Positions 7,741-49,054 of a stretch of DNA of 64,000 bases are shown here, in pieces. The position numbers were made by a program, and so were the translations under genes. Numbering within the stretch: position 1 is the stretch's first letter; every line of letters begins with the position of its first letter. The DNA lies in contig CANCXX010000007.1 in assembly GCA_947381965.1 (NCBI GenBank), positions 1 through 64,000 on the forward strand. The letters are read 5' to 3'. Source of the stretch: an uncultured bacterium. Its GTDB lineage: Bacteria; Bacillota; Clostridia; Lachnospirales; Lachnospiraceae. Under the pieces are notes generated by a model, which saw only the letters and a program-made list of their open reading frames with translations, was not told the origin of the DNA and did not search any database.

Positions 7741-7866
7741 CCTCTTTTGGGGAAGCAGGAAAGCGGCATTCGTCAAATGGAAGGCTTCGCATCCGCTTGA
7801 CGCATTGCTCGCGGGAATAAATGGCAGGCAGTGTACGCAGTGCCAGAGTACGCAGAGGAAAACATA

Positions 7867-10242
7867 GTGAAAGAGATAAAGATATCCGTAAGGAGCCTGG
7901 TGGAATTTGTTCTCCGCTCCGGGAATATTGACAACAGAAGAGGCGCGTTTGCTGAAAATGCTATGCAGGAAGGCGGAAGGATTCACCGTATGATACAGCG
8001 CAGAATGGGCGCTGATTATCATGCGGAAGTCTTTCTGCGCTATATTTACAAAACGCCGGATTACGAAATCCATATTGAAGGACGGGCGGATGGTATTATG
8101 TTGCCATCGGCTTACAGCCCAAAAGAGGCGGCGGTGGTAACAATAGATGAGATTAAAGGAACCTACAGAGATATCCATAAGATGAAAGGGGCAGTTCCGG
8201 TTCATGTGGCCCAGGCCCAGTGCTATGCCTATATTTATGGAAGCAGAAATGGATTAAAAAATATCAGGGTGCGGCTTACTTATTGCAACATGGACACAGA
8301 AGAAATCCGCTATTTTCACTTTGACTATGAAATGGCAGAGTTGGAGGAATGGTTTGAAGAGGTAATGGAGCAATACAGGAAGTGGGCGGACTTTCAATTT
8401 GAGTGGCAGGAACTTCGCACCCAGTCTGTCAAGGCGCTTTCCTTCCCTTTTACCTACCGGAAGGGGCAGAAGGAGCTGGCTTCTTATGTTTATCAGACAA
8501 TCTATCACAGAAGAAAATTATTTATTGAAGCGCCCACAGGCGTAGGAAAGACGATTTCTACTTTGTTTCCGGCTGTAAAGGCAATTGGGGAAGGGCTAGG
8601 GGAGAAAATATTTTATCTTACAGCCAAAACCATTACCCGGACGGTAGCGGAGGAGTCTATCCGGCTTTTAAGGGAGCAGGGACTCCGGCTTAAGTCTGTG
8701 ACATTAACTGCAAAGGATAAAATCTGTTTTATGGGGGAAACAGAGTGCAACCCGGACTACTGTCCTTATGCCAAAGGGCATTTCGACCGTATAAATGACG
8801 CTGTTTATGACTTATTGACTCAAACGGACAGTTTTACCCGTGAAGCAATTGAAGCCTGTGCAGGGGAACATAAGGTTTGTCCTTTTGAAATGGGACTGGA
8901 TATGAGTCTTTTTGCAGATGTGATTATTGGTGATTATAACTATCTTTTTGATCCCCATGTATATTTGAAACGCTTTTTTTCAGAAGGAGGAAAAGCAGAT
9001 TATTTATTTTTGATTGATGAAGCCCATAATCTGGTGGAGCGGGGACGGGAAATGTACAGTGCACTTCTTAGAAAAGAGGATTTCCTTGCCCTTAAAAAGA
9101 CAATGAAAGATTACGATATGAGAATTTATCGGCAGTTGGAGAGGTGTAACAGGGAATTGCTGGAGTTGAAGCGGGAATGTGAGGATTATGTATGTCTGGA
9201 GGATGAGGCGGCAGCTCCTTTCATAAAAGCCCTTATCCGTCTTTCCGCCCTGATAGAAACCTATCTGGAAGACCACGAAGACAGTGCTGTGAAAAAGGAA
9301 ATATTGGACTTTTACTATGAAGTGTCTCATTTTCTGCTTATTAATGATAAAATGGACAGAAACTATGTGATTTATACACAGATGGAAGCAGATGGAAGCT
9401 TTATTATAAAGCTGCTTTGCGTTAATCCTTCAAAGAATCTGCGGGAGTGTATGATGCGGGGGCGGAGCAGCATTTTGTTTTCTGCCACATTTCTCCCCAT
9501 ACAGTATTATAAGCGTCTGCTTGGGGCAAACCAGGAGGATTATGAAGTATATGCCCATTCGGTTTTTGATCCCCGGAAGAAGGGACTGTTTATTGCCAGT
9601 GATGTGACCAGCAGATACACCAGACGGTCGGAAGAAGAATATTACAACATTGCAGCATATCTTCACAATATTATCTGCCAGCGGGAAGGCAATTACATGG
9701 CTTTTTTTCCTTCCCATGCGTTTTTGCAGAATGTGTATGAGGCATTTAAGAACCGGTTTCCGGAGGGGGCAAAGGTTGAATGTCTGCTGCAGGAGGATTA
9801 TATGGATGAAGAAGGCAGAGAGGCATTTCTTGCCCGGTTTGACGAAAAGGCGGAAAAGTCACTATTGGGATTTTGTGTGCTGGGAGGAATTTTTGGGGAG
9901 GGAATTGACTTAAAGAATGACAAATTAATTGGCGCTGTAATTGTGGGAACCGGACTTCCGCAGGTATGCGGCGAGAGGGAAATTCTAAGGAAATATTTTG
10001 ATGAAAAAGGGGATAATGGTTTCGATTTTGCCTATAAATATCCAGGAATGAACAAAGTATTACAGGCCGCCGGGAGAGTGATCAGGACGGCGGAGGATAT
10101 CGGAATCGTGGTACTTCTGGATGAAAGGTTCCTTCATTCCTCCTATAAAAGTATGTTCCCAAGGGAATGGGAGGATTTTGAGATAGTTTCTTCTTCTCGG
10201 ATAGGTAAGAGAGTGGAGAGATTTTGGGATGAATGGCTTTAA
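7867..10242 (+). CDS. RecB-like nuclease / DinG-Rad3-type DNA helicase
   Basis: A 791-residue two-part protein. Residues about 1-170 have a PD-(D/E)XK (RecB-like) nuclease pattern: GRADGIM, then TIDEIKGTY (D...E-x-K), then QAQCYAYIYG. Residues about 205-791 are an XPD/DinG-type superfamily 2 helicase: Walker A APTGVGKT, Cys residues around CFMGETECNPDYCPYA and KVCPF that fit an Fe-S cluster domain, the DEAH box LIDEAHNL, and motif VI QAAGRVIRT. Expected to unwind and cut DNA during repair. GTG 7867 is chosen because AGAGGAA lies 6 bp upstream; an in-frame GTG at 7831 has no ribosome site. Confidence 0.85.
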   Translation: MKEIKISVRSLVEFVLRSGNIDNRRGAFAENAMQEGGRIHRMIQRRMGADYHAEVFLRYIYKTPDYEIHIEGRADGIMLPSAYSPKEAAVVTIDEIKGTYRDIHKMKGAVPVHVAQAQCYAYIYGSRNGLKNIRVRLTYCNMDTEEIRYFHFDYEMAELEEWFEEVMEQYRKWADFQFEWQELRTQSVKALSFPFTYRKGQKELASYVYQTIYHRRKLFIEAPTGVGKTISTLFPAVKAIGEGLGEKIFYLTAKTITRTVAEESIRLLREQGLRLKSVTLTAKDKICFMGETECNPDYCPYAKGHFDRINDAVYDLLTQTDSFTREAIEACAGEHKVCPFEMGLDMSLFADVIIGDYNYLFDPHVYLKRFFSEGGKADYLFLIDEAHNLVERGREMYSALLRKEDFLALKKTMKDYDMRIYRQLERCNRELLELKRECEDYVCLEDEAAAPFIKALIRLSALIETYLEDHEDSAVKKEILDFYYEVSHFLLINDKMDRNYVIYTQMEADGSFIIKLLCVNPSKNLRECMMRGRSSILFSATFLPIQYYKRLLGANQEDYEVYAHSVFDPRKKGLFIASDVTSRYTRRSEEEYYNIAAYLHNIICQREGNYMAFFPSHAFLQNVYEAFKNRFPEGAKVECLLQEDYMDEEGREAFLARFDEKAEKSLLGFCVLGGIFGEGIDLKNDKLIGAVIVGTGLPQVCGEREILRKYFDEKGDNGFDFAYKYPGMNKVLQAAGRVIRTAEDIGIVVLLDERFLHSSYKSMFPREWEDFEIVSSSRIGKRVERFWDEWL

Positions 10243-40169: not shown

Positions 40170-41564
40170 ATGAATGGGTATTATGAGATATTGGGGTTAC
40201 AGCCTGGCGCATCCCAGCTGGAAATAAAAAAAGCATATTTTAAGCTGGTCAGACAGTATTCCCCGGAATCAGACCCGGAACAGTTCCAGAAAATCCGTGA
40301 AGCATATGAACAGCTGAAAAATATTCAAAATGCACCGGAAGGGCCCACTTTTTCTGCGCTGGAAGAACCTTTTGCAGAGAAAATGTTAAAACAGGTTGAA
40401 AAGCTTTTCAGAGAGGGAAATTTTGAACTGTGCAGGGATACCTGTCAGGAAGCCTGTCGCTTGTTCCCGGAAAGCCTGCAGTTTATATACTATTTGGTTC
40501 TGACTCAAAGAAAATGCGGAAATACCGGAAAAGCGGTCAAAAATGCGGAGCTGCTTGTAAAGAAAGAGCCGGGAAATAAATGGTTTCAAAAAGAGCTTGC
40601 TGTTTCTTACATGGAACGTGGTTTTACACAAAAGGCTTATCTAGCCTGTGAGAGGGCGTTTGAGCTAGGCTGTCAGGATGTGGATTTTATATTGATGTAT
40701 GCGACGGAATGCAGTAGTTACGGTCGGTATGATAAAGGGGCGGAACTTTTGCTTACCATTATCCGGCAGGAGAAAAGATGGTCCAGAGAGGATATACCGG
40801 AGCTTGTACAGGCATATTTGGGTCTGGTAAAAATGAATTATTTCGGAACGGTTAATTATTTTCCGGAAATTCTGGAAAGGCTGCACAGTCTTCTGGAACA
40901 ATATGGTACTTTTATGGCCGAATATCTTTTAGAGCTTTCCACAATGCTTTCCCGTGTGGGATCGAATCTGGCGGAAAAAAGAGAAGAATGGCTGAAAGCA
41001 GAGCAAATTTTTGACCTTATGGAAAAATTATGCCGTACAGATTCGGAAAAGGATCATCTGAAAGATGCCAGAAAGGAATTTAACTGCCAGCGGTTTATAA
41101 ATGATAAACGGATAGGAAAAATCTTAAAAAGAGGTTATGAAGCCTGGAATGATTTAGCGGATATGGATCCGATGATACAGAAGTTTGCAATGACGGATAC
41201 CCAGCTTTGCATGATAGAGGAGCGGCTGGAAATTTTGGAACAGGCAGAGATTATCCGACAGGATTATCCGGAATTTTATGAGGCAATGCAGGACTTTTTT
41301 GAGAAGCTGAAGGTTGAAAAAAATCTGGTTTTCCTAAAAGAAAGTCTGCAGAAAATCTACCGTCGGATAGAGCCGGGCTTTAATGGCGGGTATTATTACA
41401 AGGAGTATCCGGAGGAAAAAAAGAAAGCAGAAGGAATTCGTATCAATGACGGTCATAGGGATGAACCGTATGTGCGGGAAACAAAGAAGATAGGACGCAA
41501 TGATCCATGTCCCTGTGGTTCAGGAAAAAAATATAAACATTGTTGTCTGAATAAGATAAAATAG
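40170..41564 (+). CDS. J-domain/TPR/SEC-C protein with degenerate HPD
   Basis: A 464-residue protein: an N-terminal J-like domain [46 protein letters not shown] in which the universal HPD is Ser31-Pro32-Glu33; a helical repeat (TPR-like) middle part (about residues 70-240); and a C-terminal SEC-C zinc motif [19 protein letters not shown]. Loss of His and Asp of HPD would impair stimulation of a standard Hsp70, so it may be matched to the divergent Hsp70 just upstream. GGGAGG precedes the ATG. Confidence 0.85.
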
Positions 41565-41617
41565 AAGGCGGGGCCTGCAGGTTTATCACTGGGGATGAAG
41601 GATGGACAAAAAAGAAG

Positions 41618-42274
41618 ATGAGAAAGGGCAGGAAGGATATGGGAGAAATCAACCGTGAAGACATGCTGGAGCTGACCAGAAGGATGACCCTAAAGAGAAA
41701 CTGCTTTGACAGGATTGCCGGGGCGTATCTGGATAAAGATGGGTTTGTGGACGGAACTTTCAACAAACATTTCCAGAAATTATTGCCAAAAGACCAGAAA
41801 GCAAATCTTGAAATTGCAAAGACAGTCCCATTTTCAGAGACAAATGTGCAGCTCAAAGAGTATGAATTTGGAGAGAATGACAGAAAACAGGGAAGCATAT
41901 GGCAGCTGCTTATGGCACTGAAGGAATGTGGATTGAAAAATGATGCCATGCTGGATGTATTTTATGAGGCGTTTGGACAAAAATACAGGGCAAAGGGAGA
42001 GTATGCAGTCTATTTTTTTCACGGGAGCTATGACGTGCCGCTGAAAGCAGGCGATAAAGAAAGCCTCTGGGAGTCGGAGGAGGTTTACCAGTTTCTGGTT
42101 TGCACAGTCTGTCCGGTAAGCGGGGATTATGAACCCGGAAAGCCGGAATGCGGTTTTTTATTCCCGGCTTTTAAGGACAGAAGCAGTGATATACACCGGA
42201 TAGATGTTTTTTCGGCGGATGGTAATTTCCAGCAGGCAGGAGGGTTGTTGGAAGTCTTATTTTCCAATTCCTAA
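41618..42274 (+). CDS. DUF4317-type protein
   Basis: A 218-residue protein with DUF4317-like blocks: EDMLELTRRMTLKRNCFDRIAGAYLDKDGFVDGTFN, FSETNVQLKEYEF, SIWQLLMALKECGLKND and PECGFLFPAFKDRSSDI. The family is common in Lachnospiraceae and its function is unknown. The downstream Met in DMGEINREDM (41639) fits homologues but leaves only 2 bp to the ribosome-like GGAAGG, so 41618 is kept as an uncertain start. It follows the chaperone cassette by about 50 bp and ends in a strong terminator. Confidence 0.75.
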   Translation: MRKGRKDMGEINREDMLELTRRMTLKRNCFDRIAGAYLDKDGFVDGTFNKHFQKLLPKDQKANLEIAKTVPFSETNVQLKEYEFGENDRKQGSIWQLLMALKECGLKNDAMLDVFYEAFGQKYRAKGEYAVYFFHGSYDVPLKAGDKESLWESEEVYQFLVCTVCPVSGDYEPGKPECGFLFPAFKDRSSDIHRIDVFSADGNFQQAGGLLEVLFSNS

Positions 42275-42349
42275 AGGAATAAATACAACTTATAAGCTTA
42301 AATTATTTCTGTCAGCTTATGGAAAGTGACAAATATAAAATGAACAAAT

Positions 42350-42394
42350 AAGGTGCAAATCCTATTGAACTAATAGGGCTTGCACCTTTTTTTC
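42350..42394. terminator. Terminator next to the left inversion site
   Basis: AAGGTGCAA (42350-42358) pairs with TTGCACCTT (42380-42388), with an inner CCTATT/AATAGG stem, followed by TTTTTTCTT on the plus strand. On the minus strand the hairpin is followed by ATTTGTTCATTTT. It can stop both the DUF4317 transcript and the outward minus-strand promoter at 42487-42515. Confidence 0.85.
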
Positions 42395-42416
42395 TTAGAT
42401 TATTTCAATCTGCGAA
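42392..42416 (-). repeat. Left recombination site (inverted)
   Basis: A 25-bp site with arms TTCTTAGATT and AATCTGCGAA around ATTTC. Its reverse complement matches the right site (43803-43827) at 23 of 25 positions, including the whole asymmetric 5-bp spacer GAAAT. The two-arm plus short-spacer layout is that of tyrosine recombinase core sites. Confidence 0.85.
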
Positions 42417-42455
42417 TCGTAACACAGGCAGAAATCTGCACCTTTTATGGCAATA

Positions 42456-42482
42456 AAAACAGTAGCCAACGGCTAATCTGTT
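42456..42482 (-). terminator. Promoter-proximal hairpin and T-run on the minus strand
   Basis: On the minus strand AACAG-AT-TAGCC, loop GTT, GGCTA-CTGTT is followed by TTTATT. It begins at about the predicted start point of the minus-strand promoter, so transcripts may terminate within the first 35 nt unless something prevents it. On the plus strand no T-run follows. Confidence 0.55.
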
Positions 42483-42486
42483 TATC

Positions 42487-42515
42487 ATTATACTTTCGGT
42501 AATGTTATTTGTCAA
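42487..42515 (-). promoter_or_regulatory. Consensus sigma-A promoter inside the invertible segment
   Basis: On the minus strand TTGACA (42515-42510), 17-bp spacer, TATAAT (42492-42487): both hexamers are perfect. It now reads left, towards the terminator at 42350-42394. After inversion it would read right through the right-hand site into the sortase/LCP/surface protein operon. Confidence 0.85.
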
Positions 42516-42644
42516 CTAATTATAATTTATTAGGCAAATAAAGTAATTTTGCGACAATTTTTATTTAATATTGTCTGAAAGATAATTAAATTTCATGAAA
42601 TTAAATCATTGCGGGTCAAAAAAGTGGTCAGGAGGAAATGGAGA

Positions 42645-43763
42645 ATGCCAAGACGTGGAGAAAATATCAGAAAGAGAAAAGACGGACGCTGGGAAGGCAG
42701 GTATTATGCGCCTTCCCCCTGCTCCGGCAGGAATGTAAGCCATTCCATTTATGCCAAAACGTACAGGGAAGTAAAAGAAAAACTATTGGAAGCAAAGAAA
42801 GAGGCATATAAGACTGCTGAAGAAAGGGAGACACCTTCGGCAGTTAATTTTGGCATGGCGGCAACGGAATGGATAGCCGGAATAGAAAATGTAAAAAAAT
42901 ATTCTACCTATATTAAATATCGTTCTATCTATGAAAAGTATATTCAGAAAAAACTATCCGAATTTTCTGTTTCAGAATTGGACGAGAATATTCTTGCAAA
43001 TGTTTTTTGGGACGATGCAGAGAAAGAATTTTCAGACAGTATCCAAAAAAGCATCCTTTGTGTGCTCAATCAGATACTTTCCTATGCTTCCACTCATTAC
43101 CATACGGATTTTTCCAGGTGTTCCCGAAAAAAGCTGAAAAACAGGAACCGGAAGGTAGAAACGCTTAATCAAATGGAACAGGCAAAATTGCTTAAGTATT
43201 TATACAGTGAGATGGATATTTACAAGCTGGGGATTGTAATATGTATTTCCACAGGTCTTCGTCTGGGAGAAATTTGTTCTCTTAAATGGGAAGACATTGA
43301 TTTTGAAAGAAAAGTTTTATATGTCAATCGAACTGTCCAGCGGATAGCGGTAGAAGGGCACAGTACAAAAACCGTTCTTATGGAAGGGGACCCTAAGAGC
43401 ATTTTTTCCAGACGGGAAATTCCTTTATCTAATGAGATGATCAAGCTGATTTTTCCTTATTACGGAGGTGCTGATAATTATGTGATTAATGATAACAAGC
43501 CTATGGAGCCAAGGACCTATCAGATAAAATTCCAGAAGTATTTACAGATGGCCGGAGTGGAACGGAAAAACTTTCATATACTCCGTCACACCTTTGCTAC
43601 AAATTGTATAAACAATGGAACAGATATTAAAAGTTTAAGCGAAATCCTGGGACATTCCGATGTGAAAATTACATTAAACCGATATGTTCATCCCACACTG
43701 GAAACCAAACGGCAGCATATGAATTCACTGTCTGCCATTTATGGTCAGTTTGTGGGTCAATAG
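42645..43763 (+). CDS. Tyrosine site-specific recombinase (integrase)
   Basis: A 372-residue tyrosine recombinase: N-terminal arm-type domain (GRWEGRYYAPSPCSGRN), a SAM-like core-binding domain (about 65-165), and a catalytic domain with Arg206 (TGLRLGE), His311/Arg314 (HILRHTF), His337 (LGHSDV) and nucleophile Tyr347 (NRYVHP). All key residues are present. It is alone, with no excisionase or other element genes, and is flanked by inverted recombination sites, so a DNA invertase role is likelier than integration. ATG 42645 has GGAGG (42631-42635) 9 bp upstream. Confidence 0.9.
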   Translation: MPRRGENIRKRKDGRWEGRYYAPSPCSGRNVSHSIYAKTYREVKEKLLEAKKEAYKTAEERETPSAVNFGMAATEWIAGIENVKKYSTYIKYRSIYEKYIQKKLSEFSVSELDENILANVFWDDAEKEFSDSIQKSILCVLNQILSYASTHYHTDFSRCSRKKLKNRNRKVETLNQMEQAKLLKYLYSEMDIYKLGIVICISTGLRLGEICSLKWEDIDFERKVLYVNRTVQRIAVEGHSTKTVLMEGDPKSIFSRREIPLSNEMIKLIFPYYGGADNYVINDNKPMEPRTYQIKFQKYLQMAGVERKNFHILRHTFATNCINNGTDIKSLSEILGHSDVKITLNRYVHPTLETKRQHMNSLSAIYGQFVGQ

Positions 43764-43802
43764 TTCCTGATTTCACACTATTTTAGGAACTAAAGGGCAT
43801 GT

Positions 43803-43827
43803 TTCGCAGATTGAAATAATCTGCGAA
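43803..43827 (+). repeat. Right recombination site (inverted)
   Basis: Arms TTCGCAGATT and AATCTGCGAA around GAAAT; the two 10-bp arms are perfect inverted repeats of each other. It lies 40 bp after the recombinase stop codon and 80 bp before the sortase gene. Reverse-complement partner at 42392-42416. Confidence 0.85.
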
Positions 43828-43907
43828 CAGCCAGTCTATGGTATTAGTGTGTACGCTTAATGTGAAAGTTATACCTCAAAAAAGTTTTAAAGAAAAGGGC
43901 TGATAAT

Positions 43908-44873
43908 ATGAAGAAAAATGAAAAAGACGAAAAATCAAAAATATGGTTGTTTTTATTTGCAGCTTTTGCGGTGATGTTTGTGGTGGGAGGAATTTCCACA
44001 GTTACCGGCGCTCTAAACAGAAAAAAGGCAAATGATGCTTATGGACAGATGCAGACTGCTGTAAATGATGTCCAAAGCCAGGAGGATGACATATTAGTGG
44101 GCGGAACGGAAGTGGAATGGGAAGACAAGGCAAAAGGCGTTCTTCCAAATGGCTCCGGAGAAAAGCCAGAGTCATCTGAAAAAGGAGGACTGGAAACCGA
44201 AATGGAAGAAGACGGCGCGTTGATTGAGGTTAAGATTAAAAAAGAAAAGGCAAAACCGTCACCGAAACCAGGTGAGACTGTTTCCGGGAAAAAGCTTGAC
44301 TGGGATGCACTGCGGAAAGAATGTGCAGATATTTATGCCTGGATCAGTGTTCCGGGAACCACAGTGGATTACCCGATTGTACAGCACCCTACAAGCAATG
44401 CGTATTATCTTAACCACAATATGGACGGGTCAAAAGGGTATCCGGGTTGTATTTATACAGAGAACTATAATAAGAAGGATTTTTCTGATTTACATACGGT
44501 GATATACGGACACAACCTGAAAGATAAAACCATGTTTTCCACCCTTCACAATTTTGAGAAGAAAAAGCTGGTAACAGAGCCGCATTATATTTACGTGTAT
44601 ACGGAAGAGGATGTGTTTACTTATGAAATCTTTGCGGTATATGAATACCCGGCCATTCATCTTCTGGCCAATTATGATTTGACCAATGAGTATGTCTATG
44701 AACAGTACATTAAAGATATTTTCAATATGGATAATACGGATGCAAGAATAGCCAACATACGGCATGATATTGAAGTTACGAATGAGGATAAAATTATTAC
44801 CTTGTCAACATGCACCTCTGACCATGATGCGAGCCTGCGTTTTCTGGTAGTGGGCGTTTTGCAGAATTCATAG
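43908..44873 (+). CDS. Class B sortase, catalytically intact
   Basis: A 321-residue sortase: N-terminal membrane anchor (about residues 12-35), a charged linker, then a class B sortase domain with TVIYGHN (His202), ITLSTCT (Cys302) and LRFLVVG (Arg311), i.e. the full His-Cys-Arg set. It should attach surface proteins to peptidoglycan; a candidate substrate with a PKTG signal is two genes downstream (46060). It is the first gene after the invertible segment and I see no good promoter of its own between 43828 and 43907. Confidence 0.92.
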   Translation: MKKNEKDEKSKIWLFLFAAFAVMFVVGGISTVTGALNRKKANDAYGQMQTAVNDVQSQEDDILVGGTEVEWEDKAKGVLPNGSGEKPESSEKGGLETEMEEDGALIEVKIKKEKAKPSPKPGETVSGKKLDWDALRKECADIYAWISVPGTTVDYPIVQHPTSNAYYLNHNMDGSKGYPGCIYTENYNKKDFSDLHTVIYGHNLKDKTMFSTLHNFEKKKLVTEPHYIYVYTEEDVFTYEIFAVYEYPAIHLLANYDLTNEYVYEQYIKDIFNMDNTDARIANIRHDIEVTNEDKIITLSTCTSDHDASLRFLVVGVLQNS

Positions 44874-44888
44874 AAATGAGGGACTTCC

Positions 44889-45986
44889 ATGCTGGATAAA
44901 GAGGAAACCATTGAGAAGAAAAAAATTGGAATCGGCGCAACAACAGTGCTGACAATCTTTGCAATTGTTCTGGTGGTTCTGGGGATTGTTCTTGTGATGA
45001 GGATGATTGGAAAAGGCAATCTGGCTATGGCGGTGGCGGGAACGGAGGAGACGGAAACAGATATCGGAGAAGAAGATGAAGGCCTTAAGGAAAACCAGAT
45101 TCTTTATCGCAATCAGGTTTATACACTGAATTCCGACCTTATCACAATTCTTATAATGGGGATTGACAAAGAAACGGTTAAAACCGTGGGAGGACAAAGC
45201 TGGAGCGCAGAAGATGCGGATGAATTTGGGGGAGGACAGGCGGACGCCCTGTTTTTGGCCCTGATTAATCCCCATGATAAAAATGTTTATGTAATTGCAA
45301 TCAACCGGAATGCCATGGTTGATGTGGACGTTTTTGATAAAGATGGAAATTATCAGGGAGTGTTTACCAAGCAGGTGGCCTTACAGCACGGATATGGAGA
45401 CGGCGGAGAGGAAAGCTGTCTGCGGCAGGTAAAAACAGTTTCCCGCATGTTCCACAACATTCCAATTCATGCTTACGCGTCAATCAGCATGGACGCAATA
45501 CCGGAGCTAAACGACGCGCTGGGAGGAATTACTGTGGAGGTGCTGGACGACATTATTTACCCAGAATATGATATGGACCTGCATCAGGGAGAGGTAGTTA
45601 CTTTGATGGGGGAAAAGGCTTACTGGTATGTGCGTCTGCGCAACGAAAATGTGTTTAATTCAAATGAGCTTCGCCTGCAAAGACAGAAACAATATCTGAC
45701 AACCTTTGCGGCGGAGGCAAAAAACCAGGCGGCGGCAGACATCAGAACAGCGGTTAAATTATACCAGACGGTACAGAAATATATGGTAACAGATATTGAT
45801 TTAAACAGCTTTACTTATCTTGCTACCGAAGCGCTGGATTATGAGTTTGATGTGGAAAATTTATATTCCCTGCAGGGGGAAGTGGTTCAGGGCAATTTAT
45901 TTGAAGAGTTTTATATAGACGATGATGCCCTGCAGGAACTTATCGTAAAGCTGTTTTATGAACCGGAAGAAGACATTCCAAATTAA
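44889..45986 (+). CDS. LytR-CpsA-Psr (LCP) family glycopolymer ligase, copy 2
   Basis: A 365-residue LCP protein with an N-terminal helix (about residues 15-40) and LCP motifs ILIMGIDKE, GGQADALFLALINP, AINRNAMVDVDVFD and LRLQRQKQYL. It is a close paralogue of the LCP protein at 19876. Following a sortase by 15 bp, it is probably cotranscribed and would attach the glycopolymer made by the downstream operon to the cell wall. Confidence 0.9.
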   Translation: MLDKEETIEKKKIGIGATTVLTIFAIVLVVLGIVLVMRMIGKGNLAMAVAGTEETETDIGEEDEGLKENQILYRNQVYTLNSDLITILIMGIDKETVKTVGGQSWSAEDADEFGGGQADALFLALINPHDKNVYVIAINRNAMVDVDVFDKDGNYQGVFTKQVALQHGYGDGGEESCLRQVKTVSRMFHNIPIHAYASISMDAIPELNDALGGITVEVLDDIIYPEYDMDLHQGEVVTLMGEKAYWYVRLRNENVFNSNELRLQRQKQYLTTFAAEAKNQAAADIRTAVKLYQTVQKYMVTDIDLNSFTYLATEALDYEFDVENLYSLQGEVVQGNLFEEFYIDDDALQELIVKLFYEPEEDIPN

Positions 45987-46059
45987 GTATTAAGTCCGGA
46001 AACCACAATCCGGATTTGATATAGACCACATGAGATGTAGGAAAGGAGGAAGTATTGAT

Positions 46060-46782
46060 ATGAAGAAAAAAGTATTAGCTTTATTGTCTGCACTTACAAT
46101 TATGGCAACAGGTTCCATGACTGCATTTGCAGCCAGCCCTACCGTACCGGGAACAGAAGCTCCGGCACAGGGACAGGTGGTTGCTACCACTGTTACTCAA
46201 ATGAAGACAGCTACGGAATATACTTCTGTTACACAGGTTTCAGATGGCTTTTCTGTAACGACAGTAACGCAGACAGTTGTTCAGCAGGTTGCGGTAACAG
46301 TACAGAATACGCTGCTTAATAACCTGTCACATATTGGCACAACGTTTGCTTCAGCGGCAACAAGCGGAAGCGCACAGATTGCAGCCAGCAGCTACAGCAA
46401 TATTGCGGCAGCAGCAGAAGATTCTACCAAGAGAGTTACAGCTTCTGTTCTTTCAGTAGTGGATGTAAACGCTGAAACAGCTACAAAGGCATCAAACGGC
46501 AACTATGTAGTAACCATGAACATTTCTAGTATTTTAAGCACAGATGCAATTGCTGTTCTTCATTATAACGGCAGTGCATGGGAAACCATTATCCCTACAA
46601 ACGTGTCAAATGGTTCCGTAACATTTGAAACTGCAAGCCTTTCACCTATTAGTATTGTTAAACTTGAAGTTGAGAGCCTTACAATGGCTCCCAAAACAGG
46701 CGAAGCAATGGCAATGATGGCAGTAGTGATGCTGGCTGGTCTTGCAGGTGTAATTTTCTGCGGAAAGAAATATTTTGGATAA
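46060..46782 (+). CDS. Cell-wall-anchored surface protein with PKTG sorting signal
   Basis: A 240-residue Thr/Val/Ala-rich protein: signal peptide (MKKKVLALLSALTIMATGSM..., cleavage after AFA near 24), a middle region of beta-strand-like repeats, and a C-terminal sorting signal MAPKTGE (209-215) followed by a hydrophobic stretch and CGKKYFG. PKTG-type motifs fit clostridial class B sortases (C. difficile SrtB uses SPKTG/PPKTG). Start 46060 is chosen over 46030 because AAAGGAGGA sits 9 bp upstream and it begins the signal peptide. Confidence 0.85.
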   Translation: MKKKVLALLSALTIMATGSMTAFAASPTVPGTEAPAQGQVVATTVTQMKTATEYTSVTQVSDGFSVTTVTQTVVQQVAVTVQNTLLNNLSHIGTTFASAATSGSAQIAASSYSNIAAAAEDSTKRVTASVLSVVDVNAETATKASNGNYVVTMNISSILSTDAIAVLHYNGSAWETIIPTNVSNGSVTFETASLSPISIVKLEVESLTMAPKTGEAMAMMAVVMLAGLAGVIFCGKKYFG

Positions 46783-46801
46783 TATTTGAATGAGTAATTA
46801 A

Positions 46802-46885
46802 AAAATAAGATCTTATTTTATTCCGAACATCATGTGGTTGATATAGGAACACAGAAACCCGGCAGGGCTTCCGGCTTTTGCCGGG
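46802..46885 (+). terminator. Two hairpins after the surface protein gene
   Basis: A perfect 18-bp palindrome AAAATAAGATCTTATTTT (46802-46819) and a GC-rich hairpin CCCGGCA (46858-46864) / TGCCGGG (46879-46885). Only short A/T runs follow, so they may attenuate and not fully stop transcription into the glycan genes. Confidence 0.5.
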
Positions 46886-46915
46886 TGGCTGTAAAAAACA
46901 TTGGAACGGACGCTA

Positions 46916-48061
46916 ATGAAAAAGGTTCTTTTTGTAACGACAATTAGTGGCTTTTTGCCACAGTTTGAAAAAAATGACGTTAAGCTGCTTAAGGAGATGG
47001 GGTGTGAAATACATTACGCATCTAATTTTAAAAATCCTGTATATGCCTTTGACAGAAAGGAATTAAAAAAACAGGGTGTGATTCTGCACCATATTGATAT
47101 TGCAAAAAGTCCTGCCAGAATCAGGGAAAATATTGCAGCCATCAGACAGCTGAAAATTATTATAGATAACAATAAAATTGATATGATTCACTGCCATAAT
47201 CCTATGGGAGGTGTGGCCGGGCGGGTAGCGGCGCAAGTCAGCAGACGAAAACCTTATGTGATTTATACAGCCCATGGATTTCATTTTTATAAAGGGGCGC
47301 CGGTTATAAACTGGCTGTTGTTTTATCCGGCGGAACGTTTTTTGGCTGGATTTACCGATCAGATTATTACGGTTAACAGAGAGGATTATTTGCGGGCAAA
47401 AAAATTCCGTTTAAGGAAAGGCGGAAGTGTGGTCCAGATACATAGTGTAGGCGTAAGCCAGGACAGATTTAAACCGGATAAGAAGCTGGGAGAAAAAAAG
47501 CGTATCAGTCTGGACGTTCCCTCTGATGCTTTCCATATTGTGACGGCGGCCGAACTGAATGCAAACAAAAATCAAAGGGTTATTATAGAAGCAATTGCCC
47601 AGCTTTCAAACGAAAACATTTATTACAGTATTTGTGGAAAAGGCATCAATGAAAAAGAGTTAAAAATGTTAATTGAAAAGAGACATCTGGAAAAACAGGT
47701 GCGGCTCTTGGGGTATCGCACAGATATGGAAGAAATCCTCCAGTGTGCAGATTGTTTTGCCTTTCCATCCCACAGGGAGGGACTTGGCATTGCCGCTATA
47801 GAAGCGCTGCTTTGCGGGGTGCCGCTGATAGCGGCTGACAACCGGGGAACCAGAGAGTACGCCATAAACGGCGGCAACAGTATTGTCTGTAAATCAAACT
47901 GTGTGGAAGATTTTAAAAATGCAATTTATCTTTTTTGTTCCGATAAGACCATGCACAGTCATATGGCATCCTTATGCAGGGCATCGGCAGAGAAGTTTAC
48001 CATAAATGAAGTGGAAAAAACAATGAAAGAAATATATAAGAAAGCGTTAATTTCTTTGTAG
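46916..48061 (+). CDS. GT4-type glycosyltransferase
   Basis: A 381-residue GT-B enzyme resembling EpsD/CapM-like proteins: KVLFVTTISGFLPQFEKNDVKLLKEMG, DMIHCHNPMGGVAGRVAA, VIYTAHGFHFYKGAP and PSHREGLGIAAIEALLCGVPLIAADNRGTREY (E-x7-E). HGFHFYKG is typical of the subgroup that acts early on lipid-linked sugars. ATG 46916 is preferred to an upstream TTG at 46901. Confidence 0.9.
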   Translation: MKKVLFVTTISGFLPQFEKNDVKLLKEMGCEIHYASNFKNPVYAFDRKELKKQGVILHHIDIAKSPARIRENIAAIRQLKIIIDNNKIDMIHCHNPMGGVAGRVAAQVSRRKPYVIYTAHGFHFYKGAPVINWLLFYPAERFLAGFTDQIITVNREDYLRAKKFRLRKGGSVVQIHSVGVSQDRFKPDKKLGEKKRISLDVPSDAFHIVTAAELNANKNQRVIIEAIAQLSNENIYYSICGKGINEKELKMLIEKRHLEKQVRLLGYRTDMEEILQCADCFAFPSHREGLGIAAIEALLCGVPLIAADNRGTREYAINGGNSIVCKSNCVEDFKNAIYLFCSDKTMHSHMASLCRASAEKFTINEVEKTMKEIYKKALISL

Positions 48062-48065
48062 GGGA

Positions 48066-48148
48066 TACTGTGAAAAATAAATTTTTCACAGGCAAATTTG
48101 CGCTGACGCCCCAATTTGCAGGCACTGGCAGCATGGAGGATTATTATG
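48066..48148 (+). repeat. 83-bp leader repeat, copy B
   Basis: Counterpart of 13159-13240. It has the stem-loop CTGTGAAAAAT/ATTTTTCACAG (48068-48091), a second stem CAAATT...AATTTG around GCGCTGACGC, and ends in ATGGAGG and the start codon of the next gene. Confidence 0.7.
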
Positions 48149-49054
48149 AGGCAGCCATTAGTTTCCGTCATTATGGGAGTATATAACCAGTGGGATGAAA
48201 AAGTATTAAAGGATGCGGTTAATTCCATATTAAAACAGACTCTTCGGGATTTTGAATTTATCATCTGGGATGATGGTTCCTGTCCGGAGGCAGCAAAGAT
48301 TGTACATAATTTAACCAAGCTGGATGAGAGAATTATAGTAGCCGGAAAAGAGGAGAACAGGGGCCTTGCATTTTCTTTAAATGAATGTATCCGTCTCGCA
48401 AAGGGAAAGTATATTGCCCGGATGGATGCAGACGATATTTCTCTTCCCTTCCGTCTGGAAAAGCAGGTGGATTTTCTGGAAAGCCATCTGGAATATGGAT
48501 GGTGCGGCACGAATACGGATTTGTTTGATGAAAACGGCGTCTGGGGATTCCGCCCGATGCCGGAGATACCGCAAATGATAGATTACTTTCATTATTCCCC
48601 TTATATTCATCCTTCTGTCATGTTCCGCTCCCTGCTTTTTGACGAGGACAATGGGTATCTTGCCACCCAGGAAACGCTTCGCTGTGAGGACTATGAGATA
48701 TTTATGAACCTTGTGGAGCGGGGACAGAAGGGATACAACCTGCAGGAAACACTGTTCAGGTACAGGGAAACAAGAGATTCCTACCGGAAAAGAAAGGTGC
48801 GTTTCCGTATCAATGAGGCCAAAACCAGATATCGCAATTACCGGAAACTGAACATCCTTTTTCCGGTAGGGTGGATTTATGTGCTCCGTCCGATTTTTGC
48901 GTGTCTGATACCGCCGGCAGTTTTGGAGTGGATGAAAAGGACAGAAGGTATCAGTTTTATGAAACAGGGAGAAAGGATAAAGGAGAGAGGGATTGGACAG
49001 CAGAAGGGAACTTACTCTGCGTTTGGAACAATACAAAACCATACTGAAGCATAA
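48146..49054 (+). CDS. GT2-type glycosyltransferase
   Basis: A 302-residue GT-A enzyme: LVSVIMGVYNQWDEKVLKDAVNSILKQTLRDFEFIIWDDGS, ENRGLAFSLNECIRLAKGKYIARMDADDIS (DxD) and RCEDYEIFMNLVERG (catalytic ED). Adds a sugar in the second glycan operon. ATG 48146 is chosen because GGAGG (48135-48139) sits 6 bp upstream; the longer TTG-started frame would use repeat sequence as coding. It overlaps the next gene by 62 bp. Confidence 0.9.
   Translation: MRQPLVSVIMGVYNQWDEKVLKDAVNSILKQTLRDFEFIIWDDGSCPEAAKIVHNLTKLDERIIVAGKEENRGLAFSLNECIRLAKGKYIARMDADDISLPFRLEKQVDFLESHLEYGWCGTNTDLFDENGVWGFRPMPEIPQMIDYFHYSPYIHPSVMFRSLLFDEDNGYLATQETLRCEDYEIFMNLVERGQKGYNLQETLFRYRETRDSYRKRKVRFRINEAKTRYRNYRKLNILFPVGWIYVLRPIFACLIPPAVLEWMKRTEGISFMKQGERIKERGIGQQKGTYSAFGTIQNHTEA

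Follow-up and report, generated by a model that had tools for sequence, protein, structure and literature searches.

A predicted self-contained promoter switch enclosing a Tn916/Tn1549-like tyrosine recombinase ahead of a sortase operon in a Lachnospiraceae genome

To our knowledge, promoter inversion in gut Firmicutes is known mostly from lists obtained by read mapping. The Hin switch of Salmonella is constructed as an invertible segment which holds both a promoter and the recombinase gene, and in Clostridioides difficile the tyrosine recombinase RecV flips switches of surface and motility genes, one recombinase serving more than one switch (Cdi1 and Cdi4) (PMC5903667). Integrases of the IntTn916 type possess an N-terminal domain built from three strands and one helix (PMC8138268). 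In the hCom2 study, the Clostridia inverton group 139 was linked to the tyrosine invertase group 35 (PMC11892184), and in the hin and csrA-tldR loci of Flavonifractor plautii the hin gene lies outside a 120-bp inverton (PMC13418256). These accounts are taken from excerpts of the papers, and in such excerpts, among the matches listed from the open-licence literature, no tyrosine-recombinase promoter switch with an enclosed gene and arm sites was found. Herein, a candidate for this arrangement is described from a 64,000-nucleotide stretch (the window) of an uncultured Lachnospiraceae bacterium (assembly GCA_947381965.1, contig CANCXX010000007.1, positions 1 to 64,000), in which the segment 42392-43827 encloses a tyrosine recombinase gene and an outward promoter next to a sortase operon.

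Judged from its sequence and from related loci, the segment likely flips by crossover at a 5-bp spacer, which would turn an operon for a sortase, an LCP family transferase and a PKTG surface protein from OFF, the predicted present state, to ON. The enclosed recombinase would perform the inversion, its N-terminal domain binding pairs of GGTCA words at both ends of the gene and bridging them to the core sites, and it may also repress its own gene. In the present orientation the promoter would fire into a terminator-like hairpin, while after the flip transcription would start approximately 170 bp before the sortase gene. Inverted repeats enclose a promoter-bearing segment here, an inverton by structure; both orientations have been shown for relatives and are expected at this locus.

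The segment of 1436 bp is bounded by two inverted 25-bp sites that match at 23 of 25 positions (92% complementary), each composed of a 10-bp arm, an asymmetric 5-bp spacer and another 10-bp arm, the two spacers being inverted and identical. Chance repeats were rejected, since none of 2000 dinucleotide shuffles of both flanks reached a score of at least 18, the observed pair scoring 20. Across its own genome the site pattern was found at the present locus, at a second switch (contig 25, different spacer) and at two places with three mismatches; a reversed control pattern gave one match. A first-pass annotation of this DNA had proposed a lone tyrosine recombinase between inverted 25-bp sites with an identical spacer, and the match count, the shuffle test and the Pfam assignment of the recombinase all bear this out. 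The word pairs, the kinship to Tn916/Tn1549 integrases and a short hairpin behind the promoter are additions to that annotation.

Promoter-like matches of at least 9/12 within 41500-47500 numbered 13 against 15.2 expected, so that only the perfect one stands out; this sole 12/12 match lies on the minus strand and points out of the left end of the segment. By arithmetic, its -10 element would end 176 bp ahead of the sortase start after inversion, and the plus strand of the gap between recombinase and sortase contains no promoter-like match. Three earlier proposals are upheld by these values, namely that a perfect outward promoter near the left end reads into a terminator, that inversion would place it about 170 bp upstream of the sortase, and that the gap has no other good promoter. 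The short hairpin and T run follow directly after the predicted transcription start. A conserved attenuator at this place was considered and rejected, as some hairpin is present in 8 of the 30 loci whose promoter scores at least 11 and the sequences are dissimilar. An RNA-family leader was also rejected, Rfam giving no match at the gathering threshold in 36000-58000.

The recombinase is better started at the ATG at 42645, which stands behind AGGAGG (372 aa), than at the TTG at 42609 of the open reading frame list (384 aa). Its best matches in both sequence and fold are to the Tn1549 integrase, which gives it core-binding and catalytic domains like those of Tn916/Tn1549. The N-terminal domain is predicted to comprise three strands and a helix, the arm-binding type; taken alone, this domain found no sequence match in the PDB and no Foldseek match at E 0.001. 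The enzyme does not appear to move a mobile element, the sites being inverted rather than direct and no second site copy with cargo being present in its own genome.

Relatives were found at E 1e-20 in 17 of 37 genomes of the genus and at 1e-45 in 87 of 397 family genomes (80 of 334 genera represented), the own genome being included in both counts, and a scan of named-species genomes retained the best 80 of 129 loci, largely from Lachnospiraceae and Enterococcus. Viral contigs yielded 12 relatives, the best at 31% identity, and plasmids 12 records, all below 60% and the best among the matches listed at 36%. A total of 93 loci were taken, of which 89 were usable in having at least 300 bp on each side of the gene; L044, L084, L088 and L143 were dropped because a contig end fell within that distance. 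An inverted site pair with a score of at least 18 and identical spacers, the latter being part of the defining rule, is present in 65 of the 89, with 52 different spacers, while the spacers were unequal in 3 of 72 listed pairs (L061, L077 and L090). The arm-spacer-arm form is shown by 60 of the 65 (47 spacers); L060, L062, L071, L079 and L085 fall short of it with fewer than 14/20 arm pairs, and two of these (L062 and L085) belong to the loci labelled ON below. Between the two sites of a locus, mismatches over all 65 loci number 88 in the outer arms versus 32 in the inner arms. More distant relatives had a site pair in none of 26 cases.

All 63 rows with the inverted-repeat label (IR+) fall in one clade of 83 (96/88) of a 102-row tree, and 19 IR- rows stand outside it. 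The label needs 12 changes on the tree, which indicates repeated loss or gain of site pairs. L045 (score 17) and L057 (15.5), whose sites are present but below the cut, count as IR- in the word scoring and as IR+ in the tree. Eight orthologous Enterococcus recombinases (L063-L067, L070, L077 and L092) have conserved flanks with no site pair and no word pairs, and this branch has perhaps lost the switch or never had it.

Inversion is displayed by related loci. In an alignment of L050 (Schaedlerella arabinosiphila) with L052 (Sporofaciens musculi), which have this locus in common with each other, the segment (88.0%) runs opposite to its two flanks, the change of direction falling at the sites. 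L159 and L161, copies on two contigs of one genome which may be paralogues or strain variants, are 92-95% identical and likewise in opposite orientation. Counting 40 bases outward from the spacer, the crosswise comparison gave 39/40 and 39/40 for L159/L161 versus 18 and 19 on the same side, and 35/40 and 29/40 for L050/L052 versus 20 and 17. The outer arm variant remains attached to its flank and the inner arms move along with the segment, which places the crossover within the spacer or beside it. In L157/L158 and L050/L169, too, crosswise matches of lower identity begin near the sites. The suggestion that the recombinase travels within its own switch is supported by these relatives, which share the layout and occur in both orientations with their junctions at the sites, and by the recurrence of the outward promoter.

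The GGTCA word pairs are probably arm-type sites, as their sequence and placement suggest. They recur at both gene ends in relatives, including loci scored after the word rule, derived from the first loci, had been fixed, these later loci being relatives rather than independent draws. It is possible, though doubtful, that the words are mere operators for self-repression or a by-product of the C-terminal codons rather than arm sites of a recombination complex. The 5' pair does lie at the ribosome binding site and the 3' pair often within the last codons; a second pair at the 3' end is nevertheless hard to explain as an operator, and in other relatives (e.g. L041, L043 and L078) the 3' pair lies past the stop codon and the letters have changed at both gene ends. 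A word spacing of 12 in nearly all relatives also speaks against either origin. Moreover, L049 and L058, which have no sites, retain YGQ..GQ in the protein but not the words in the DNA, an argument weakened by L053, which has no sites either and keeps its 3' pair.

Of the 65 loci, 16 have a best outward promoter-like match of 12/12 and 13 one of 11/12, values which shuffled sequence reached in 1% (11) or never (12), and the inward strand of the loci gave no 12/12 and a single 11/12. The loci were labelled from open reading frame direction alone, OFF denoting an outward gene start only 3' of the recombinase and ON only 5' of it, whereby 40 are OFF, 9 ON, 13 have starts on both sides and 3 on neither. 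Terminator-like hairpins outside the sites are found on the left only in 22 of the 40 OFF loci, on the right only in none, on both sides in 3 and on neither in 15, the corresponding counts for the nine ON loci being 1, 3, 1 and 4. The family promoter thus probably meets a terminator in the OFF layout and reads into the operon in the ON layout. The present orientation is predicted to be OFF for the sortase/LCP/PKTG operon, and the earlier call to this effect agrees with the relatives, in which OFF is the commonest layout and the terminators are then mostly on the promoter side.

Several observations weigh against this reading of the segment 42392-43827. Its inverted form was not seen, and a second genome with the locus was not found. 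The outer arm of the left site carries both mismatches (2/10 bases). Copies in Enterococcus raffinosus strains are collinear (three of one switch and two of another, in a comparison that leaves out an 84% copy, H22, and a partial copy, H23), and L223 and L175, 97.8% identical, share one orientation. The best outward promoter reaches at most 10/12 in 36 of the 65 loci, including the contig 15 switch of the same genome (9/12), and among the ON loci a terminator is lacking on both sides in 4/9 and lies on the left only in 1/9. Some relatives have a word pair but no sites (L053 and L167 the 3' pair, L170 the 5' pair). A recombinase stands ahead of the sortase in only 1 of 23 sortase loci checked (L180, which is the locus L164 and has its own sites and an 11/12 promoter), whereas L178 cannot be judged, its contig breaking off 72 bp before the sortase match. 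Finally, the hairpin and T run at 42451-42482 might terminate or regulate transcription whichever way the segment lies.

The mismatches in the left outer arm, the close copies without flips and the preponderance of OFF (40/65) versus ON (9) layouts would also suit a once-active switch that is now locked, with a decayed left site and the segment fixed as it stands. This is improbable, considering that at least one outer-arm mismatch occurs in 45 of the 65 loci and in both members of both flipped pairs, and that the promoter, both word pairs and an open frame with every catalytic residue are preserved here. It is equally improbable that the present orientation is ON, transcription of the operon starting at the recombinase's own promoter and passing through its gene while the consensus promoter serves something else. 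Recombinase and operon are indeed co-directional, with no terminator-like match between recombinase and sortase on the plus strand; however, the plus strand upstream of the recombinase within the segment has no promoter-like match of at least 9/12, the strong and recurring promoter is the outward one, and the terminators of OFF loci lie on the promoter side, never on the operon side alone (0/40). A small mobile element with terminal inverted repeats was rejected as highly improbable: a tyrosine recombinase flanked by inverted repeats and relatives at 34-37% identity in records deposited as phage would accord with it, but the site recurs in the own genome only at the second switch, with another spacer, besides the two three-mismatch matches, inverted sites yield inversion rather than excision, and the phage records are unverified, unannotated fecal scaffolds, five of the six examined having the same switch layout.

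Those six records (L223-L228, deposited as Bacteriophage sp.) may be bacterial DNA mislabelled as phage. In one of them, L225, an inverted repeat of more than 300 bp flanks the recombinase, like two outward-facing copies of one gene start, and this locus may choose between two genes. L085, from a bin named Muribaculaceae, has a perfect 55-bp inverted repeat (7786-7840 and 9257-9311) ending exactly at the contig end, which is possibly an assembly artefact. Contigs also end 168 bp before the recombinase in L044 and, as stated, before the sortase match in L178, as flipping sites might cause.

Table 1. Features of the switch and its predicted target operon (window coordinates)
Feature	Position	Strand	Remark
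Terminator-like hairpin outside left site	42350..42388	-	-20.7 kcal/mol, z -4.3; promoter now points into it
Left recombination site	42392..42416	+	two 10-bp arms, spacer ATTTC
Short hairpin and T run directly after predicted transcription start	42451..42482	-	from sequence
Outward consensus promoter TTGACA-17-TATAAT (predicted)	42487..42515	-	12/12; reads 42515 to 42487; same place in relatives
5' word pair GGTCA-N7-GGTCA, candidate arm-type sites	42614..42630	+	before recombinase ribosome binding site
Tyrosine recombinase, 372 aa, Tn916/Tn1549-integrase-like	42645..43763	+	Pfam Phage_integrase (PF00589), E 6.8e-29
3' word pair GGTCA-N7-GGTCA, candidate arm-type sites	43743..43759	+	in last recombinase codons
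Right recombination site, inverted copy	43803..43827	-	spacer GAAAT
Sortase, class B-like, predicted target	43908..44873	+	Pfam Sortase 50.6 bits; TIGR03064 148.9 bits
LCP family glycopolymer transferase, predicted target	44889..45986	+	Pfam / NCBIfam
Surface protein with PKTG sorting-like motif, predicted target	46030..46782	+	motif read in open reading frame translation
Two glycosyltransferase genes, possible further targets	46901..49054 (46901-48061, 48116-49054)	+	Pfam

Within the predicted target operon, the TIGR03064 score of the sortase falls slightly below the cut-off of 153.75, and the PKTG protein matched no Pfam or NCBIfam family. The sortase-LCP-PKTG order is retained in L178-L182. 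On the target side of the relatives, 18 of 20 proteins scanned, which come from 19 loci and include products of second or third genes, match a Pfam family, including CpsB/CapC, LCP, pilin, WxL, CDP-glycerol glycerophosphotransferase-like and glycosyltransferase families as well as response regulator, PP2C, helicase, VWA and TnpB-like ones. In L052, L054, L152, L157, L158, L162, L168, L169, L171, L172 and L173, the first target is a protein of 440-480 aa, and the two of these scanned in Pfam both match Cas12f1-like TNB. The RuvC-type acidic residues that a TnpB would presumably bear are apparently lost in the 11 aligned sequences, so that dead proteins resembling TnpB and TldR seem to stand under an invertible promoter here. 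One genome harbors four close recombinase relatives (L159-L162) and a fifth, more distant one, and three of these precede helicase or related genes.

The genome under study has two more switches, L036 on contig 25 and L038 on contig 15, with best outward promoters of 12/12 versus 9/12, and L038 precedes LCP and sortase genes. The spacers differ between the switches, so that the three of this genome should act independently; private spacers would allow several switches to run independently in one cell. More broadly, with chances that appear about even, a family of transposon-type integrases may have been domesticated in Lachnospiraceae and enterococci into private, self-contained promoter switches, each with its own recombinase, spacer code and arm-site pairs, in which a lambda-like bridged complex would drive inversion and limit its own synthesis, the targets being surface polymers, pili, regulators and, in one branch, dead TnpB-like proteins. 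The present locus offers a testable machine: its sites are defined to the base, crossover is placed at the spacer, and it comes with a recombinase, putative arm sites and an operon as its predicted target. Should the arm sites prove real, an integrase that binds arm sites, of a type described for mobile elements (PMC8138268), would have been turned into a cell-surface switch that needs no distant recombinase.

Compared with the systems introduced above, the F. plautii loci share, as far as the excerpts describe them, an inversion upstream of a dead TnpB-like regulator gene with some relatives of this switch, but hin lies outside the inverton there and the target from 43908 onward is not TnpB-like here. 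The hCom2 groups 139 and 35 are similar in joining Clostridia invertons to a tyrosine recombinase close by and may include the present family; gene enclosure and arm-like words are absent from the excerpted description, which was compared as a description rather than as sequence. RecV resembles the present enzyme in being a tyrosine recombinase with surface genes as its target (a predicted one here), while in this family every switch has a spacer and an enclosed recombinase of its own. With IntTn916-type enzymes the recombinase shares the catalytic fold and, by prediction, the three-strand and helix N-terminal domain, but those enzymes move conjugative elements and phages, whereas here inverted sites surround the recombinase and a promoter with no mobile cargo. 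As in the Hin switch, the segment 42392-43827 encloses both recombinase gene and promoter, and the enclosed enzyme would be the inverter; Hin is a serine recombinase, in contrast with the tyrosine type (PF00589) found here with its predicted arm-binding domain and candidate arm-type word pairs. The segment would work like the Hin switch and is not a member of the serine family; it is best read as a self-contained switch of Hin-like design, driven by an integrase of transposon type.
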